The position numbers were made by a program, and so were the translations under genes. DNA of 27,868 nucleotides from a virus: the IMG/VR virus record IMGVR_UViG_3300021197_001017, positions 1 through 27,868 of that record; one strand, given 5' to 3'. Below are positions 5,038 through 26,846 of the stretch, in pieces (the first letter of the stretch is position 1; every line of letters starts with the position of its first letter). The notes below the pieces were generated by a model that was not told the DNA's origin, searched no databases, and saw nothing but the letters and a program-made list of their open reading frames with translations.

Positions 5038-5984
5038 AATATTTGGTAACAGGTGGAGCAGGATTTATTGGATCCAACCTAGTGGATTATTTGATTGATC
5101 GAGATCATGAAGTTGTTGTTATCGACAACGAATCATCGGAGTCACATGACCACTTCTATTGGAATGAAAAAGCAGAAAATCACAAGTTAGATATTGCGGA
5201 GTATGATGATATTCTTCCTCTCTTCGATGGGGTGGATGTTGTTTTCCATTGTGCTGCACAATCTAGAATTCAAATTTGTGTGGGGGATCCTACTACAGCA
5301 GCGAAAACAAACATGCTGGGAACTTGTTGCGTGTTGCAGGCAGCAAAGGAAAGTGGGGTAAAGAGAGTTGTTTATTCTTCAACGTCATCTGCATATGGAT
5401 TGGCAAACAATCCTCCTAATGTCGAGACACAACCAGATGATTGTCTGAATCCGTATTCGGTATCAAAGGTTGCCGGAGAAAAACTTTGTAGTATGTACTC
5501 CAAACTTTTTGGTCTTGAAACTGTTATTTTGAGATATTTTAATGTATATGGAAAAAGACACGCTTTGCGTGGACAATATGCACCTGTCGTCGGTAGATTT
5601 TTAGATCAAGAAGTGAATGGTGAACCGCTAACAATTGTACCAGATGGAAACCAAAGAAGAGACTACACCCATGTTGATGATGTTGTGCAGGCAAATGTGC
5701 TTGCATCAGGAGTGGAACTTGACAAACTTTTTGACCCAGACGATATTGGTGAGTATAGAAATATTGGATATGGAGAAGTTTTTAACGTAGGAACAGGGAC
5801 GAATACGTCTGTCAATGAACTAGCAGAAATGATTTCGGAAAATACGATTATGATTGATCCTCGTCCGGGTGAAGCAAGAGTGACACTCGCAAATAATAAT
5901 AAAATTAAAAACGTAATGAGATGGTCACCAACGGTTAGACTAGAAGATTGGGTTGAAGAGGAAAAGAAAAGGTTGGGACTATGA
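5034..5984 (+). CDS. NAD-dependent epimerase/dehydratase (sugar-nucleotide epimerase)
   Basis: An extended short-chain dehydrogenase that probably epimerises or dehydrates a nucleotide sugar such as UDP-glucose or UDP-GlcNAc. The Rossmann NAD motif GGAGFIG is at residues 7-13. The catalytic set is SSTSSAYG (Ser/Thr near 116-119) with Tyr141 and Lys145 in NPYSVSK. Substrate-domain signatures RYFNVYG and DYTHVDDV follow. Its 316 residues are full length for the GalE/WbpP group. It overlaps the primase stop by ATGA and the thyX start by four bases. Such genes are auxiliary genes in phages, often linked to modifying surface glycans or phage DNA sugars. The exact substrate cannot be read from the sequence. 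Confidence 0.88.
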   Translation: MKYLVTGGAGFIGSNLVDYLIDRDHEVVVIDNESSESHDHFYWNEKAENHKLDIAEYDDILPLFDGVDVVFHCAAQSRIQICVGDPTTAAKTNMLGTCCVLQAAKESGVKRVVYSSTSSAYGLANNPPNVETQPDDCLNPYSVSKVAGEKLCSMYSKLFGLETVILRYFNVYGKRHALRGQYAPVVGRFLDQEVNGEPLTIVPDGNQRRDYTHVDDVVQANVLASGVELDKLFDPDDIGEYRNIGYGEVFNVGTGTNTSVNELAEMISENTIMIDPRPGEARVTLANNNKIKNVMRWSPTVRLEDWVEEEKKRLGL

Positions 5985-9675: not shown

Positions 9676-10716
9676 ATGAATAAAATTAGTGCTATCCTAT
9701 TACCATTTGTTTTCGGCGGAGTTGCCGTTGCAAGTGAACCAACACCAGAAGCGTATGAACTTATTTTCAACAACGTCCAAGAGGACGCTGCGACACATAG
9801 TTCGCTTCGTGGACCCAGACCAATGGCAATCACTGTCGATGGTCTACTCCAAACTGGTTGGTCTTACAGCAATGGTGGCAACACCGATGCTGTTTATGGG
9901 TTTGATGTATATCGTGCAAGACTAGGACTTAAGGGTCGTCTTGGTGAAGATACATCATTCCGTCTAAATGGCGAATGGACTCCCGGAAGTGAATTTGAAC
10001 TTCTAGAAGCATTCGTTGATTACCGTGGTTTTGATTTCGCTGATGTTCGCGTTGGTCAGTTTGTTTCTACTTTCTACAGTGGATTTGTTGCAAACCCTGC
10101 CGACCTTACTACGCAGACCTATAGCATCACTGCTCAAACTTTTGGGCAGGGATATGGTCAGGGTATCGAACTTTCCCGTTCGTTCGGAGAGATCGAATTC
10201 AGTGCGTTTTACAACAACGGTTTTGATAACCTAACTGGTGTTTCCAACGGCGACTATGCCGCAGGTTTCCACGCAGGTTTTGATGTATGTGAAGGATTCT
10301 CTCTCGGTGGTGGTTATGCCTACATCGAAGGTCCAACTCAATACATGAGTTATACTCTTGATACTACAGTTACGCTCGATGAGTTTTCACTCAACGCAGC
10401 ATGGATCTCGGATGATAGAATGGATGGTTGGGAAAACTACTCGCTAGTTACAACTGCTTCATTCAATCTCAGTGATCAATCACAACTGTTTGGTCAGTAT
10501 GAGTACGGAAACCTTGGAGGTTTCGCTGGTGGTAAACTCAACGTAGGAACCATCGGTCTTAATTATGATTTGACCAGCAATGTCAAGTGGACCAATTCGG
10601 TTGGTTACGCTTTCGATGACATCGCTGCTGGTTTCGATACCGCTGACACTGGTTGGAATGCCGGTGCAGGTCAAGGTGAATATGTGGTGCGTAGTTTCAT
10701 CACAATTAGTTTCTGA
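9676..10716 (+). CDS. Outer-membrane porin (phosphate-selective porin O/P-like)
   Basis: A 346-residue secreted beta-barrel protein. The N-terminus is a Sec signal peptide (Lys3, then a hydrophobic run to about residue 18, with AVA before Ser20 as the likely cleavage site). The mature part alternates short amphipathic strands and ends in Phe (SFITISF), the usual outer-membrane assembly signal. The stretch YRARLGLKGRLGEDTSFRLN, then ELLEAFVDYRGFDFADVRVG and QFVSTF, is characteristic of the OprP/OprO porin group. The ribosome site AAGGAG precedes ATG 9676 by nine bases. It follows nrdJ by 21 bases and precedes a small membrane protein and a terminator. A porin in a T4-like phage is unusual. Possible roles are nutrient uptake during infection or masking of the phage receptor. 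Confidence 0.85.
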   Translation: MNKISAILLPFVFGGVAVASEPTPEAYELIFNNVQEDAATHSSLRGPRPMAITVDGLLQTGWSYSNGGNTDAVYGFDVYRARLGLKGRLGEDTSFRLNGEWTPGSEFELLEAFVDYRGFDFADVRVGQFVSTFYSGFVANPADLTTQTYSITAQTFGQGYGQGIELSRSFGEIEFSAFYNNGFDNLTGVSNGDYAAGFHAGFDVCEGFSLGGGYAYIEGPTQYMSYTLDTTVTLDEFSLNAAWISDDRMDGWENYSLVTTASFNLSDQSQLFGQYEYGNLGGFAGGKLNVGTIGLNYDLTSNVKWTNSVGYAFDDIAAGFDTADTGWNAGAGQGEYVVRSFITISF

Positions 10717-11015: not shown

Positions 11016-11594
11016 ATGGCAATAGCAGGTATTGATTATTCTTTATGTGGACCTTGTATCTGTATCTTTGATGGAACAGTCAAGGAGACGTTTGGTATAC
11101 ACAGGTGTTCTTTTTACTTTCTTACAAATGTAAAGAAACATGCAAAAGTATATGAAGGTATAATCTACGGAGAGATGTTTGATGACTATAACCATGAGTG
11201 TCAAAGATATGAAACTATATCTGACTGGGCAGTTGACAAAGTTTTAGGTTGTGATCAGGTTGGACTCGAAGGGTATGCATACGGCGCATCCGGTCGCTCC
11301 ATCTTCCAGATCGCAGAGAACTGTGGATTGTTAAAATATAAATTGTATCAAGCAGGGAAACCAATTTCGGTCCTGACTCCAACGACTGTAAAGAAACACG
11401 GCACAGGCAAAGGTAATGCGTCTAAGGACTTGATGGTGAAGTCCTTTGACAAGGATACTGGCATGAATTTGAAACATACCATTACTCCTGATAGAACAAA
11501 AATCGGCAACCCCGTTTCCGACATTGCCGACTCTTATTATATTTGTTCTTTGTTACACAAGAATCTTAGAGCGATTTCGGACGAACTCGCCTGA
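11016..11594 (+). CDS. RuvC-like Holliday junction resolvase
   Basis: Cuts four-way DNA junctions so that branched phage DNA can be packaged; it takes the role of endonuclease VII (gp49) in T4. The 192-residue protein has the RNase H-fold acidic set of RuvC: Asp7 (GIDYS), Glu85 (GLEGYAYG), Asp169 and Asp172 (SDIADSYY). The FQIAENCGLLKYKL segment after Glu85 and TPTTVKKHGTGKGNASKD are typical of the phage RuvC group. It is a single-gene unit between a terminator and the convergent late operon. It has no ribosome site and starts directly at the predicted late transcript start. Its 3' end overlaps the opposing gene at 11566 by 29 bases. Confidence 0.88.
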   Translation: MAIAGIDYSLCGPCICIFDGTVKETFGIHRCSFYFLTNVKKHAKVYEGIIYGEMFDDYNHECQRYETISDWAVDKVLGCDQVGLEGYAYGASGRSIFQIAENCGLLKYKLYQAGKPISVLTPTTVKKHGTGKGNASKDLMVKSFDKDTGMNLKHTITPDRTKIGNPVSDIADSYYICSLLHKNLRAISDELA

Positions 11595-15763: not shown

Positions 15764-15961
15764 TTATTTGGTGTCAAACTTTGCACGCAACTTAGGTGCT
15801 GGTGCTTTTTTTGGTTTTACGACGGGGACTTCTGCGACGGGTGCAACTGGTTCTGGTTTAGGTAATGGTGTATAACCACAACGTGTTTTAGAACTAATTT
15901 CATCTCGACGAGATAGTCTTTTGATTTGATACTTCTTTGCATTTAATTTTCTAGATGCCAT
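15764..15961 (-). CDS. Small basic Pro/Ala-rich late protein
   Basis: A 65-residue protein. The first 30 residues are very basic (KLNAKKYQIKRLSRRDE) and the rest is Pro/Ala/Val/Lys-rich (PLPKPEPVAPVAEVPVV, then KPKKAPAPKLRAKF), like a flexible DNA-contacting linker. It has a late promoter at 15979-15986 and an AAGGAGA ribosome site before ATG 15961. A DNA-condensing internal protein or scaffold component is a reasonable guess from composition, but no family is recognised. Confidence 0.72.
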   Translation of the reverse strand: MASRKLNAKKYQIKRLSRRDEISSKTRCGYTPLPKPEPVAPVAEVPVVKPKKAPAPKLRAKFDTK

Positions 15962-15978
15962 GTTTATCTCCTTTTAAG

Positions 15979-15986
15979 TATTTATC
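15979..15986 (-). promoter_or_regulatory. T4-type late promoter
   Basis: Reads GATAAATA on the - strand, followed by CTTAAAAGGAGATAAAC and ATG 15961, giving a leader of about 12 bases that still holds the ribosome site. It overlaps the last codons of the upstream ligase-like gene. Confidence 0.82.
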
Positions 15987-17196
15987 CTTTTTCCCAGTTC
16001 TTGGCGGCATTAAAGTTTGCCTGTGAGAAATTTAATCTATCAACGAGTTTAAATGCCCGATTTGATAGTCTATCGATTGCAACAAAACCCTCCGGGGCAG
16101 TCACATCGAATCCGTTGTCCGTCTTAAGGAAGAGTCCAATAGACTTAACTTGTTCAATCTTACGGACGAGAATCATCTTGACATCACGCAACGCTGCATG
16201 TACAGCGAACATCCGCAACAACGCCTTGGAGTTGCTTCGGATATATGACATCATTTGTTTCTTTACTTGTAGTTTCTTTTCTTTACCTTTTTCAGACTTC
16301 ATCTTGGCAATGTCTGTATCAAATTTCTTTTCGGTCCACTCCTTGAATCCTGCATATGTGGCAGAGGGAGTTCCGAATGCTCCAGCACGGACGAGTGTAT
16401 TATAGAATGTCTTAATGTATAATTGCATCGTGTCATCAGCAAGGAAATCATCCATAACCTTCATGGTCTTTCGGTCCATCATGGCACGAATCTTCTGTAA
16501 TTTCTTTTTAACTGCTTCTGTTTCTTTTGCAGTAAATGTTGCAACTCCCGTTTCATCTTTAAGTGTTGCATCGTCAAACCATACTGCTGAGGTTTTCTTA
16601 AGATATGAAATATCAGGACCAAATGATGCCTTCATCGACTGGAGGTCGTTGCCGGTATATTTGGTATGAAAAATGATTCCCATCTTTGCTTTGACAATTA
16701 TATTCGCAAGATCGCTATCTGCCGGAACAGCGTATGTGATTGTGTTTGGAGTAAAGGTAATATAATCTACACCATCAATCTTCTGGGAAGCAAGATCGTC
16801 ACTAAACATCATATCGCCCTGTAGCACGTCTTTGATACCCAGTTTTGATAAGTTTGCTAATGCAACTTTCAATTTATCAGCAAGACCGCCTGTGTGATTT
16901 CTAGCAATATCTGCGTTAGTATAGTTTATCTTTGGGGTAACATTGAAAACACTCTTCGACCCAACAAAGAACTTCCCGTTCTCGGGGTTGATGCCCGCAA
17001 AGACTGCGGGTGCGCCGTCCCACTTGACAGTGATGTTGTACTTTTTCGACCCACTACCTGCTAACATTTTTACAAGAGATTCTGCAAAGGTAATTGCTTC
17101 TCTTGCACCCTTGGATCCATTGTTGATCAACTCGTCTTCAAGGTGTTCAAGGTGGAGGTTCTTTTCTTCTGATAAGAATCTTTTAAAATCTAACAT
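15982..17196 (-). CDS. Phage protein of DUF6267 type with ligase/nucleotidyltransferase-like motifs
   Basis: A 404-residue protein I recognise as the uncharacterised phage group DUF6267. Residues 1-10 (MLDFKRFLSE) look like a capsid-targeting leader with LSE as cleavage site. The rest holds motifs in the order used by covalent nucleotidyltransferases (DNA/RNA ligases, capping enzymes): KWDG at 58-61 (motif I, candidate lysine Lys58), QGDMMF at 126-131 (motif III-like acidic residue Asp128), GIIFHTKY at 173-180 (IIIa-like), PEGFV at 368-372 (motif IV, Glu369) and FKLVDR at 382-387 (motif V, Lys383). A helical insertion of about 180 residues separates IIIa and IV. An AAGGA site precedes ATG 17196, one base after the previous stop. 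Ligase activity is inferred; the family is undescribed to my knowledge. Confidence 0.8.
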   Translation of the reverse strand: MLDFKRFLSEEKNLHLEHLEDELINNGSKGAREAITFAESLVKMLAGSGSKKYNITVKWDGAPAVFAGINPENGKFFVGSKSVFNVTPKINYTNADIARNHTGGLADKLKVALANLSKLGIKDVLQGDMMFSDDLASQKIDGVDYITFTPNTITYAVPADSDLANIIVKAKMGIIFHTKYTGNDLQSMKASFGPDISYLKKTSAVWFDDATLKDETGVATFTAKETEAVKKKLQKIRAMMDRKTMKVMDDFLADDTMQLYIKTFYNTLVRAGAFGTPSATYAGFKEWTEKKFDTDIAKMKSEKGKEKKLQVKKQMMSYIRSNSKALLRMFAVHAALRDVKMILVRKIEQVKSIGLFLKTDNGFDVTAPEGFVAIDRLSNRAFKLVDRLNFSQANFNAAKNWEKG

Positions 17197-20546: not shown

Positions 20547-20583
20547 GCCATTCTCCTTTCTTGTTTCCCGAGTTAGTGAGATA

Positions 20584-20903
20584 GGCATTTGTCTGTAATG
20601 CCTTGAATGAGGTTGCCCTCATCCAAGGGTCCGTGCTGCGATCAGGCAGCGAGTGAGTAACTGTTGTCAGTTAGTGTTTTGCAACCGCGATTAATGAGTA
20701 GGTCGCCTTCTCAGTCGTCTCCAACGCTTCGATTTCACCGAATCGATTCCATTTCGCCCCCGCCAAACACACTCTCCCGCCGTGTCATGTCTTTAATTAT
20801 TCTAGCGTTTCATATCTTTGAAACGAGAGAGTGTGTTTGGTGGAGGCGGGGAGAGTCGAACTCCCGTGTCCGTGTGAATCTTGCCGTCTTCCTCAACGAC
20901 ACA
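20584..20903 (-). ncRNA. ssrA: Circularly permuted (two-piece) tmRNA
   Basis: Rescues stalled ribosomes and tags their products. The order on the - strand is acceptor piece first, then a spacer, then the coding piece, as in alphaproteobacterial permuted ssrA. Acceptor piece: CGGACACGGGAG leads into a T-arm with 5-bp stem and TTCGACT loop (20849-20865), then the 3' acceptor strand CGCCTCC (20842-20848) and encoded ACCA (20838-20841). The spacer is closed by an inverted repeat ACACACTCTC / GAGAGTGTGT. The coding piece starts GGGGGCG (20755-20761), which pairs fully with CGCCTCC using one G-U. A P2-like pairing GTGAAATC / GATTCAC (one bulged A) joins the pieces. A tag frame ending DNSYSLAA and stop lies at 20642-20686, followed by a 12-bp hairpin with GCAA loop (20601-20628) and GGCATT / AATGCC (20584-20602). 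The exact ends are estimated. Confidence 0.9.
20642..20686 (-). other. tmRNA tag reading frame
   Basis: The frame reads GCKTLTDNSYSLAA and stops at TGA. The final Ala-Ala preceded by a hydrophobic residue is the degradation signal of tmRNA tags, and DNSYSLAA resembles known tags. The resume codon is uncertain: GGT 20686 or the following TGC are candidates. The TAATC motif just upstream resembles the UAGUC that sets the frame in E. coli, but lies two bases out of step with the tag frame. Confidence 0.7.
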
Positions 20904-20909
20904 GTATGT

Positions 20910-20937
20910 ATTATAGCAGGTATTCAGTCTATGTCAA
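20910..20937 (-). promoter_or_regulatory. Consensus sigma-70 early promoter of the tmRNA
   Basis: TTGACA (20932-20937) and TATAAT (20910-20915) are separated by 16 bases, with an extended TGC before the -10. CCCAAGAGG lies directly upstream of the -35. Transcription would begin near 20903, at the front of the acceptor piece. The -35 lies in the last codons of the 69-residue gene. It is nearly identical in layout to 24393-24420. Confidence 0.93.
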
Positions 20938-24392: not shown

Positions 24393-24420
24393 ATTATAGC
24401 ACAGATCTAACTGGTGTCAA
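24393..24420 (-). promoter_or_regulatory. Consensus sigma-70 early promoter
   Basis: TTGACA (24415-24420), a 16-base spacer and TATAAT (24393-24398) with extended TGC on the - strand. CCCAAGGGG lies just upstream of the -35, and AGAAAGT further up, as at the tmRNA promoter. It starts the early unit that runs to 20135. Confidence 0.93.
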
Positions 24421-24473
24421 CCCCTTGGGAAGACTTTCTGAATAGTTTCTTTTCCAATGATATTTTATAAAAG

Positions 24474-24507
24474 AGTAAAATAGAAAAGGGGGGAGTTGCC
24501 TCCCCCC
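24474..24507 (-). terminator. Rho-independent terminator of the large virion gene
   Basis: An 8-bp stem GGGGGGAG / CTCCCCCC (24488-24495 with 24500-24507) with a 4-base loop; leftwards it is followed by TTTTCTATTTT. It insulates the late structural transcript from the early unit. Confidence 0.9.
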
Positions 24508-24532
24508 AGTTCTTTTAAGTTGTAAAAATATA

Positions 24533-26512
24533 TTATGGTTTTGTCGTTGCACGGGGTGCTTGGACAAACTTGTACCCAGCACCGGTGATACCAGTTGTTG
24601 CTGGACCAGACCTGAGATACACACCGGGACCAAAATCAAACTCCGCTTTACGGTTCCTGATTTGGAAATTGTTGCCGGTTTCACTCACACCACCTTTACC
24701 AATATAGAATGCATTGAAACTGGAAATTGTGGGGTGTTCTCCTCGCAAGAACGCCTTCTCTTCAGCGTATCCGTTGAGAATTACGACATCACCGACCTCG
24801 GAGGTGTCATCAAACGTGTCACCACCGGGGTGTTGTTGATCGACCCGGAAGACACCAGCGTCCATGTTCAGATTAGTAATAGTGCAACCTGCTTGTACTC
24901 CGATTTGATTGTTAAATCCACGAACTGCAATAGTCGAACTATCAACTTTCACATTCGGTGCAGCACCCTCGTATGTTACGACATCCCATCTTGGGTTGAA
25001 CTCTTTCATATCAATGGTTGTGACAGCAAAACGATCATTGCCACTTCCGGCGAGACAGAAGTTTTGGTAGTAACCACCAAGTTGGGGACCGTTGTTTCCA
25101 CCAACATCTCCCTCAGAATTACCCGAACGGATTTCATCAGCGTCCGTATCAAGAGATGTTATCTGTGATGGGAAAGACTCAACAGTCCCTGCCGCTGTAA
25201 CTCTCGGGTAAAATAATCCACCCGCGAAGAATGGTCCAAATCTAATGTCTGGGTTACCAACAGTGTTAACGAAGTCTGTAATATGAGTAAACCAACAAGG
25301 GTCACAACGAAGTTGGTTGGTGACAGTTCCCACATAGGTAAAGGAATTGTACCTTGGGAAGTTTCCGTCTCCCAGTTTCTCTGGGGCGACCCTGACATTT
25401 TCTGCTCGTTCTTTACGTTCCTCATCACTCATAAATGGTAGGTACGCATCTGAAATGTTTACATTATGAACCGAACCACCATACTGAATGAATACCTTAG
25501 CACCCACATTTAAGTTGACAATATTATCAGCATAACCCAATCTTGCCTCACAACGCGGACCATAGTTTCCGGCACGGAGATTAATAGTTTCTCCGCCGTC
25601 CCCATCGGCGTTTGTAATAGTTTCTGGGAATAATGGTACTCCGTTCACCTCAGCACTAGTATCAGATACCTTTGGCATTCGGTATGGGGTATTGATTTGA
25701 ACATCCAATGCTCTGAGATTGATTCCTGTATTTCCCATTGCCCAAGTAACACCTCCGAACGAGGCACCAGCAATATTGGAGAACGAACCAGAGGAGACTC
25801 GACCACCCCAGTGTTTGGTGATGTTGACATTCCTCGGACCTGAAGACCAGTTGAAATCTTGTGCAAATCCCGAGAAGTTGCGGACTGTCGCTTTGCTTAT
25901 GACTCCTAATTGTCTGTGGAAATAACTTGGATAAACTTTAACAGATGCAAGTGGACCACGCCTGTTAGCGGCACTACTTCCGGAATTATCTGCGTTTACC
26001 CATACACTACCTTCACCGGAGACTCCGTTGCCGGGTTGAGCGTATCCACCAAAAAGACATGGTGAAAGGGGTGCATCGAATGGTTTCACTGATAGACCGC
26101 CATCAGTAGAACCAACATAAGTTCTCAGTAGTCCGTTTGCGGTGCTTCCCTTAACATATTCAAAAACAACATTGTCGCCACGATGTGGGATTCGTGACGC
26201 TCTTCCATAATAAACCTCTGCGTAATCCTCACCGGAAATACCGTCACCACCACTGAATCCAGACAACCGCTCTGCCCAGTTTTCTTTATTATTCCAGAAT
26301 TCGTCTAGTGCTTTCTGGTGTGCTGTACCACCGGAGGTCTCTCCCGCAGAACCCGGATTTCCCGGTGTTGGTGACTGAGTATATTTATAGTTATAATTTA
26401 AAATGGTCGAGGCACCATATGTGATGCCTGATGTAATTCCATCCTGTATCTGCTGTGACCTAATTGAACGGTCATTGCCGATCCATAAAAATGTTTTTCT
26501 TTCGACTGCCAT
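24533..26512 (-). CDS. Large virion protein, probable beta-helical tail fibre/tailspike type
   Basis: A 659-residue Gly/Asn/Ser-rich, Cys-poor protein starting MAVERKTFLWIGNDRSIRSQ with AAAGGAG before ATG 26512. Repeated short strand-turn units (for example VNITKHWGGRVSSGSFSNI, and IVNLNVGAKVFIQYGG followed by VHNVNIS, and TITNLNMDAGVFRV) suggest a right-handed beta-helix or similar fibrous fold. There is no enzymatic motif, signal peptide or membrane helix. It is a one-gene unit with a perfect late promoter (TATAAATA) and its own terminator, as expected for an abundant virion component. A receptor-binding or decorating role is inferred; the N-terminal part (1-60) may attach to the particle. 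Confidence 0.72.
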   Translation of the reverse strand: MAVERKTFLWIGNDRSIRSQQIQDGITSGITYGASTILNYNYKYTQSPTPGNPGSAGETSGGTAHQKALDEFWNNKENWAERLSGFSGGDGISGEDYAEVYYGRASRIPHRGDNVVFEYVKGSTANGLLRTYVGSTDGGLSVKPFDAPLSPCLFGGYAQPGNGVSGEGSVWVNADNSGSSAANRRGPLASVKVYPSYFHRQLGVISKATVRNFSGFAQDFNWSSGPRNVNITKHWGGRVSSGSFSNIAGASFGGVTWAMGNTGINLRALDVQINTPYRMPKVSDTSAEVNGVPLFPETITNADGDGGETINLRAGNYGPRCEARLGYADNIVNLNVGAKVFIQYGGSVHNVNISDAYLPFMSDEERKERAENVRVAPEKLGDGNFPRYNSFTYVGTVTNQLRCDPCWFTHITDFVNTVGNPDIRFGPFFAGGLFYPRVTAAGTVESFPSQITSLDTDADEIRSGNSEGDVGGNNGPQLGGYYQNFCLAGSGNDRFAVTTIDMKEFNPRWDVVTYEGAAPNVKVDSSTIAVRGFNNQIGVQAGCTITNLNMDAGVFRVDQQHPGGDTFDDTSEVGDVVILNGYAEEKAFLRGEHPTISSFNAFYIGKGGVSETGNNFQIRNRKAEFDFGPGVYLRSGPATTGITGAGYKFVQAPRATTKP

Positions 26513-26570
26513 GAGTCATTCTCCTTTAAAAGATTAGTTGCAACATTATCTTCTTGGGATTTATCCATAC

Positions 26571-26599
26571 AATATAAAAACCACTAGTTTCCCAGTGGT
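26571..26599 (-). terminator. Terminator of the tRNA-Ile/Leu transcript, overlapping a late promoter
   Basis: A 6-bp stem ACCACT / AGTGGT (26580-26585 with 26594-26599) with an 8-base loop, followed leftwards by TTTTTATATT. The promoter-proximal arm (26594-26599) would be left out of transcripts that start at the late promoter, so only upstream transcripts can fold it. Confidence 0.75.
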
Positions 26600-26606
26600 A
26601 TTTATA
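26599..26606 (-). promoter_or_regulatory. Perfect T4-type late promoter
   Basis: TATAAATA on the - strand, the exact T4 late consensus, about 90 bases before the start of the large virion gene. The predicted start site is near 26593, inside the terminator hairpin loop. Confidence 0.88.
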
Positions 26607-26618
26607 AAAACAAAGTAG

Positions 26619-26704
26619 TAGCGATGGGGGGACTCGAACCCCCATGAGGTTTAACCCTCGACGGATTTTAAGTCCGTTGCGTCTGCCAATTCCGCCACAT
26701 CGCC
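26619..26704 (-). tRNA. tRNA-Leu (UAA)
   Basis: Long-variable-arm tRNA: acceptor GGCGATG / CATCGCT (one G-U), the Leu-type GCGGAATTGGCAGACGC D-region, anticodon loop CTTAAAA with anticodon TAA, variable arm around GAGGGTTAAACCTC, T-arm GGGGG-TTCGAGT-CCCCC. No encoded CCA. Confidence 0.95.
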
Positions 26705-26773: not shown

Positions 26774-26846
26774 TGGGACAGGGGAGACTCGAACTCCCGA
26801 AAATATCGTTATAAGCGATACTGCTGATGCCATCCGCTTCTGTCCC
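26774..26846 (-). tRNA. tRNA-Ile (UAU), with atypical D-arm
   Basis: Acceptor GGGACAG / CTGTCCC, anticodon stem TATCG / CGATA with loop CTTATAA (anticodon TAT, reading ATA codons), variable loop TTTTC, T-arm GGGAG-TTCGAGT-CTCCC. Position 8 is A instead of T and the D-stem (GCGG against CAGC) has one mismatch, so it may be diverged. No encoded CCA. Confidence 0.85.

Follow-up and report, generated by a model that had tools for sequence, protein, structure and literature searches.

A late promoter motif sharing a base with a terminator-like hairpin ahead of a presumed late gene in a marine T4-like phage

How can a late gene be shielded from the transcription of a tRNA operon placed just upstream, when the hairpin that could stop this transcription lies on the late promoter itself? 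The question is raised by the virus record IMGVR_UViG_3300021197_001017 of IMG/VR (positions 1 to 27,868; this whole stretch is referred to as the window), a piece of 27.9 kb from the genome of a marine T4-like myovirus. On the minus strand, small genes that include a GroES-like co-chaperonin are followed by tRNA-Ile, tRNA-Leu, the T4-type late promoter motif TATAAATA, a hairpin, the T-rich tract TTTTATATT, a Shine-Dalgarno sequence, an open reading frame (ORF) of 659 amino acids (aa), a strong terminator and a sigma70-type promoter. The first-pass annotation placed the end of the late promoter at 26599, exactly where one hairpin arm begins, and these coordinates are right: A26599 is common to the last base of TATAAATA and the first base of the hairpin (26599-26580). 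The arrangement is probably a passive transcription insulator that heads a self-contained late-gene cassette, as judged from the sequence of the motif, hairpin and U tract, their spacing and predicted folds, the status of this promoter class in the clade, and the way in which the parts of the cassette occur or are lacking together.

In the proposed mechanism, the polymerase arriving from the early or middle tRNA operon would transcribe both arms and terminate in the U tract (about 26579-26571), and consequently the late gene would not be expressed by read-through. On the other hand, late transcription of the gp55 type would start at TATAAATA, with the +1 near 26593. The late RNA, devoid of most of the 5' arm, would form no hairpin, continue into the 659-aa gene and end at 24507-24488. 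The actual late start, the actual termination and the arrival of upstream transcription at the hairpin are predictions of this scheme. The locus had been described as a compact switch that insulates the late gene. The insulator fits the geometry; the word switch implies a regulated choice and is overstated, since the element would be passive and would have the same net effect as the commoner order of a terminator followed by a late promoter.

The geometry of the overlap supports the escape of the late RNA. The predicted +1 (G26593) falls on base seven of the eight in the 5' arm, and a transcript starting there keeps two arm bases. Its best remaining fold is -2.6 kcal/mol, compared with -16.0 kcal/mol for the read-through RNA, which bears out the earlier claim that the predicted start lies in the first arm and breaks the hairpin. 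For starts at 26599, 26598, 26597, 26596 and 26595 the folds are -11.5, -10.3, -7.7, -4.5 and -2.7 kcal/mol, respectively, and any start at 26596 or further downstream leaves -4.5 kcal/mol or weaker. The predicted escape would be robust to an error of a few bases in the start and would fail for a start at 26597 or upstream.

The hairpin is shaped like a competent intrinsic terminator, with 8 bp, four G-C pairs and a GAAA loop, directly followed by TTTTATATT. The read-through fold includes the A/U flank, in which the A-rich 5' side pairs with the U tract (TATAAA/TTTATA), and amounts to about -11 kcal/mol without it. Compared with dinucleotide shuffles, this fold has a z value of -5.9, and none of the 200 shuffles was equally stable. 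A terminator score of the d'Aubenton-Carafa type, scripted for this analysis, gave +10.0, which ranks fifth in the window; by comparison, 1,239 loosely defined candidates from T4-like genomes have a 90th percentile of +2.3. The best score of the window (+45) belongs to the terminator at 24507-24488. The hairpin is thus terminator-like by form, and its termination activity is predicted.

The late promoter motif sits 94 nt upstream of the start codon of the 659-aa ORF, on the coding strand. The window contains two copies of TATAAATA against 0.8 expected, which is weak evidence taken alone; the other one (26389-26382) falls within the 659-aa ORF and is lacking from the related contig IMGVR_UViG_3300025138_013595 (G001), 90-97% identical to the window over most shared sequence. 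Across the clade, 73 of the 106 copies (69%) are placed upstream of genes, that is, 10-150 nt ahead of an ORF start and outside coding sequence, versus 8.2% of permuted octamers, which corresponds to about 9 expected. Likewise, in T4 and cyanophages 60/90 copies are gene-upstream versus 7.3% of permutations. The promoter class is therefore real in the clade, and TATAAATA is a credible late promoter. In S-PM2 the late promoter is NATAAATA (PMC2984593), and the T4 late motif spans -13 to -6 relative to the +1 (PMC1524935). Among 129 gene-upstream late-promoter-like sites, the position 13 nt away from the motif start is occupied by A in 52%, by G in 28% and by C in 3%. The T4 spacing and this purine peak together point to G26593, inside the 5' arm, as the predicted +1.

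Terminator-like hairpins were classified around each motif in 21-23 T4-like genomes (2.25-2.73 Mb), and the p values of this survey are indicative only, because the hairpin classes were chosen after the window was seen. A terminator just upstream of TATAAATA is strongly over-represented (15/203 vs 120/13,402; in the larger set 16/238 vs 144/17,646, p = 4e-10), more weakly when gene-upstream sites alone are considered (13/162 vs 54/1,352 for permuted motifs, p = 0.03). The usual layout in these phages is a terminator, then a late promoter. Hairpins straddling the predicted start of NATAAATA are also in excess, 9/675 vs 72/22,542 permuted 7-mers (p = 6e-4, 4-fold, G001 left out), mostly in cyanophages (7/308 vs 40/11,117). 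Part of this excess arises because promoters and terminators share intergenic space. The ratio of straddling to wholly downstream hairpins is 9:6 vs 72:201 in the controls (p = 0.014; p = 0.06-0.10 at gene-upstream sites), a modest preference and not proof.

Several findings weigh against the insulator. The U tract is broken after five T, which makes the tail of the hairpin adequate, short of ideal. Hairpins straddling the +1 of the exact TATAAATA occur at 2/141 gene-upstream sites and at 15/1,104 permuted octamers (1.4% each, 2.25 Mb), and the NATAAATA excess is not significant at gene-upstream sites (8/342 vs 17/1,352, p = 0.14). In two distant relatives (L332 and L340), the TATAAATA of the same locus carries no terminator hairpin. 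Furthermore, the 31 nt formed by TATAAATA, the hairpin and the five T are identical in G001, which is weak evidence because the surrounding 237 nt are already 95% identical.

These data bear most directly on the explanation that both elements are real and active and that their overlap is accidental crowding, adding nothing over the order of terminator then promoter. This explanation is unlikely, yet survives best among the alternatives: the overlap rate for the exact TATAAATA is that of the background, and the over-represented layout would give the same outcome. An overlap at P-SSM7 90757 is also probably fortuitous, as five relatives keep the hairpin without the motif and have a conserved CATAAATA downstream of the hairpin. 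Against accidental crowding stand the preference for straddling over wholly downstream hairpins relative to controls and two cyanophage loci that persist in a second phage with altered hairpin arms.

The first of these loci, P-SSM7 173543 and its S-CAM22 orthologue, has AATAAATA and a hairpin (GAGGG/CCCTC and GAGGGG/CCCCTC) that passes directly into a T tract and a start codon; the ORF is annotated as a major head protein or a PA14-domain protein. At the same locus P-RSM4 and P-RSM1 show CTAAATA with a hairpin, ACG-2014a has AATAAATA with a degraded hairpin, and Syn9 has CTAAATA and no such hairpin. Among P-SSM7 173543 and its relatives (L399, L408, L409, L410) the upstream gene varies (psbA, psbD, purM or other), with NATAAATA or CTAAATA and the hairpin at the start of a structural-type gene; metabolic genes thus occupy a variable slot in front of a late gene. 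The second, S-PM2 115169 and Sf-FR1, contains GATAAATA with CCTCC/GGAGG and CCCCC/GGGGG before a RusA-like resolvase. A further locus, L368 16201, reads in the reverse-complement view TATAAATA, CCTTGGA-GAAG-TCCAAGG, T7 and ATATG, then a tail-fibre-like gene, and is a credible independent case of the overlap in the late structural region of a T4-like phage. As in the window, these loci have NATAAATA, the predicted +1 in the 5' arm and a U tract; they differ in that the U tract nearly abuts the start codon and in their genes and hosts. Their annotations show separate genes only. Such overlaps are uncommon. For the exact TATAAATA, no overlap was found beyond the window locus and its G001 orthologue in 2.73 Mb of T4-like genomes. 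A recurring, selected class of insulators in marine T4-like phages, with late promoters in terminator 5' arms, is a tentative proposal that has perhaps one chance in three.

In a pattern scan of viral contigs, most of the matches listed are due to chance or to a recurrent 37-nt sequence. A TATAAATACCCGCTACGGCGGGTTTTT block is conserved, among the matches listed, in L160, L177, L207, L249 and L255, which by our reading of their gene content are not T4-like. The block TATAAATACCCGCTACGGCGGGTTTTTCTTG is present at L160 5301 and L207 2631 and, as reverse complement, at L177 1885, L249 2097 and L255 3993, with different upstream genes and with TATAAATA retained. The TATAAATA found before hli in cyanophages was set aside as probably incidental, since an early promoter of its own follows the match there.

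The relatives of the window delimit the unit to which the overlap belongs. In G001, the genes and tRNAs directed at the hairpin are preceded by an early-type promoter, TTGACG-17-TATAAT (L090 14568-14596), which favours the insulator. Beyond the 3' terminator G001 has a 12-of-12 early promoter; a third contig, identical to G001 over 10 kb, adds nothing. In L327/G015 (about 82-86% identical here), the tRNA-Leu is directly followed by the early promoter, with no TATAAATA, hairpin, gene or 3' terminator in between. These four elements form one late cassette, because they are absent together in L327, which retains both the tRNA-Leu and the early promoter. The cassette may have been either gained or lost. 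Similar sequences on the minus strand, TTTTTATAAATACC (window 26597-26610) and TTTTATAAAATATC (24459-24472), flank the cassette, and the cassette-less relative has TTATAAAATATC right after the tRNA-Leu; this flanking likeness is possibly a trace of the arrival or departure of the cassette. The cassette resembles a moron, the name for an extra gene in a phage genome that brings a promoter and terminator of its own, in that promoter, single gene and 3' terminator are present or absent en bloc between conserved neighbours, and differs from it in having a T4-type late promoter and an extra terminator hairpin that overlaps this promoter.

The distant relatives L332 and L340 share the order of an 86-aa-type gene, tRNA-Ile, tRNA-Glu, TATAAATA and a large ORF. 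At this site the late promoter may be ancient, with the hairpin perhaps a later addition in the lineage of the window; the large ORFs of L332 and L340 are tentative homologues of the 659-aa ORF at most. In L332 (2901-7510), three consecutive large ORFs after the tRNA and TATAAATA share an N-terminal 'YWIG/YWRG/YWVG ... W/FN...NW' and a 'SPLLFGG'-type motif, and are probably a repeated family of surface or tail proteins.

The same relatives inform on an improbable alternative, in which TATAAATA is here no promoter and merely the A-rich 5' flank of a terminator, with expression of the gene left to leaky read-through or a different promoter. Since the predicted fold pairs this flank with the U tract, a TATAAA-like stretch is to some extent expected there; the number of copies in the window is near chance, and the empty site of L327 has a similar TATAAAATA. 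Against it, the gene-upstream copies in the clade far exceed expectation, and in L332 and L340 the motif follows the tRNA at 15-17 nt and closely precedes the large ORF, with no hairpin to account for it.

The closest known arrangements are those of T4, where a late promoter adjoins or lies within the 5' arm in the hairpins of gene e, soc, 49, I-TevI and segB (PMC3014915, PMC2988022), and for gene e, soc and I-TevI the same geometry serves a translation block (PMC3014915, PMC2988022). As in the gene e type, the early or middle read-through RNA of the window would have both arms, and the late RNA would lack the 5' arm or start within it and form no structure. The locus differs in that the Shine-Dalgarno sequence lies outside the hairpin and a U tract is present, and for both reasons the predicted block is transcription termination. 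With the ribosome binding site outside, the hairpin is not a translational one of the gene e type. That the hairpin is an RNA element (a tRNA-Leu trailer, a signal for 3'-end processing or stability, or a translational hairpin as in T4) is very unlikely: it directly follows a tRNA and several T4 translational hairpins hold a late promoter in the 5' arm (PMC3014915, PMC2988022), but the Shine-Dalgarno sequence is more than 50 nt downstream, unpaired with the hairpin and nearly equally accessible in both predicted RNAs, which led to the rejection of translational control, and in L327 this tRNA-Leu occurs with no such hairpin behind it.

The insulator is also comparable to the loci with a terminator and then a late promoter (T4 155837 + and 87187 +; S-PM2 136653; G005 55524), which likewise shield a late gene with its own TATAAATA via an intrinsic terminator. 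The hairpin and U tract are wholly upstream of the promoter there, whereas in the window the promoter is upstream of the hairpin, shares a base with it and has its predicted start in the 5' arm. The ordinary order is found in the same phage at 10975-11010 (+), with the terminator CCCCGGTC-AAGGAA-GACCGGGG, TTTTTG and then CATAAATA 13 nt before a 192-aa ORF at 11016; the G001 orthologue has TATAAATA. The overlap is a real and modest departure from the known arrangement, with a predicted function. No description of a late promoter within a terminator arm was found in the literature searched, mostly without subscription journals, and its novelty is provisional.

The 659-aa protein, presumed late on promoter evidence, has no match in PHROGs or Pfam. 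Its homologue in G001 is 55% identical, and its AlphaFold model (pLDDT 26) is unusable. At this position L332 and L340 encode 'WIG ... SPLLFGG' proteins, whose likeness to the 659-aa protein is no more than suggestive (BLASTP E 0.31; hhalign probability 4%). The features of the locus are collected in Table 1; the two tRNAs were the only matches to known RNA families at the locus.

Table 1. Positions of the features at and around the putative late cassette of the window.
Feature	Position	Strand	Basis
tRNA-Ile(TAT), upstream operon	26774..26846	-	ARAGORN, Rfam RF00005
tRNA-Leu(TAA), final gene ahead of hairpin	26618..26704	-	ARAGORN, Rfam RF00005
T4-type late promoter motif TATAAATA	26599..26606	-	Sequence; clade enrichment upstream of genes
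5' arm ACCACTGG of terminator-like hairpin; first base is last base of TATAAATA	26592..26599	-	Sequence, fold
Predicted late +1 (G)	26593	-	T4 spacing (PMC1524935) and purine peak
GAAA loop (26591-26588) and 3' arm CTAGTGGT (26587-26580)	26580..26591	-	Sequence, fold
U tract TTTTATATT, expected 3' ends of read-through RNA	26571..26579	-	Sequence; terminator score
Shine-Dalgarno AAGGAG, outside hairpin	26521..26526	-	Sequence
659-aa ORF, presumed late gene	24533..26512	-	ORF; G001 homologue
Terminator 3' of gene, GGGGGGAG-GCAA-CTCCCCCC and T tract	24488..24507	-	Sequence; score +45
Late cassette (promoter/hairpin, gene, 3' terminator), approximate boundaries	24472..26617	-	Absent from L327/G015 at same tRNA-Leu junction
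Perfect (12-of-12) sigma70-type early promoter after cassette	24393..24420	-	Sequence

The UvsX of the window shares 60-64% identity with its counterparts in HTVC008M, Melnitz and S-H38, and genes like those for gp43, UvsX, gp41 and gp61 are placed at its left, by our reading of the translations. The relatives HTVC008M and Melnitz have annotated genes for the late sigma factor and coactivator, a region that the window does not span. Between the tRNA-Ile and the tRNA-Leu, L090 has a 168-aa ORF (15852-16358), L327 has a different ORF of 143 aa (5289-5720) that ends in a PEP-CTERM-like tail, and the window has only a short spacer, which makes this a variable spot. Elsewhere, the window encodes a tmRNA (20551-20934, minus strand; permuted according to ARAGORN, tag DNSYSLAA) right behind a 12-of-12 early promoter (20937-20910), and a porin-like protein of 346 aa (9676-10716, plus strand) with an apparent signal sequence and a match to Pfam Porin_O_P (PF07396, E 1e-5).

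The insulator makes a sharp prediction: late 5' ends at 26593 +/- 2 and read-through 3' ends at 26579-26571. If it is true, fewer than 40 bp would both end an early transcript and start a late one, and the start site would decide whether the terminator exists. This would extend the T4 logic of a late promoter within a hairpin from translation to transcription, and would account for a single late gene inside the early region of a compact genome. It would also be a caution for annotators, since transcription from a late promoter may pass a terminator placed shortly after it. If the wider class is real, such elements would stop transcription running on from early or auxiliary metabolic genes (tRNA operons in the window, and psbA, psbD or purM at one cyanophage locus) and shield the late gene within a few tens of bases, doing for transcription what the T4 gene e hairpin does for translation.
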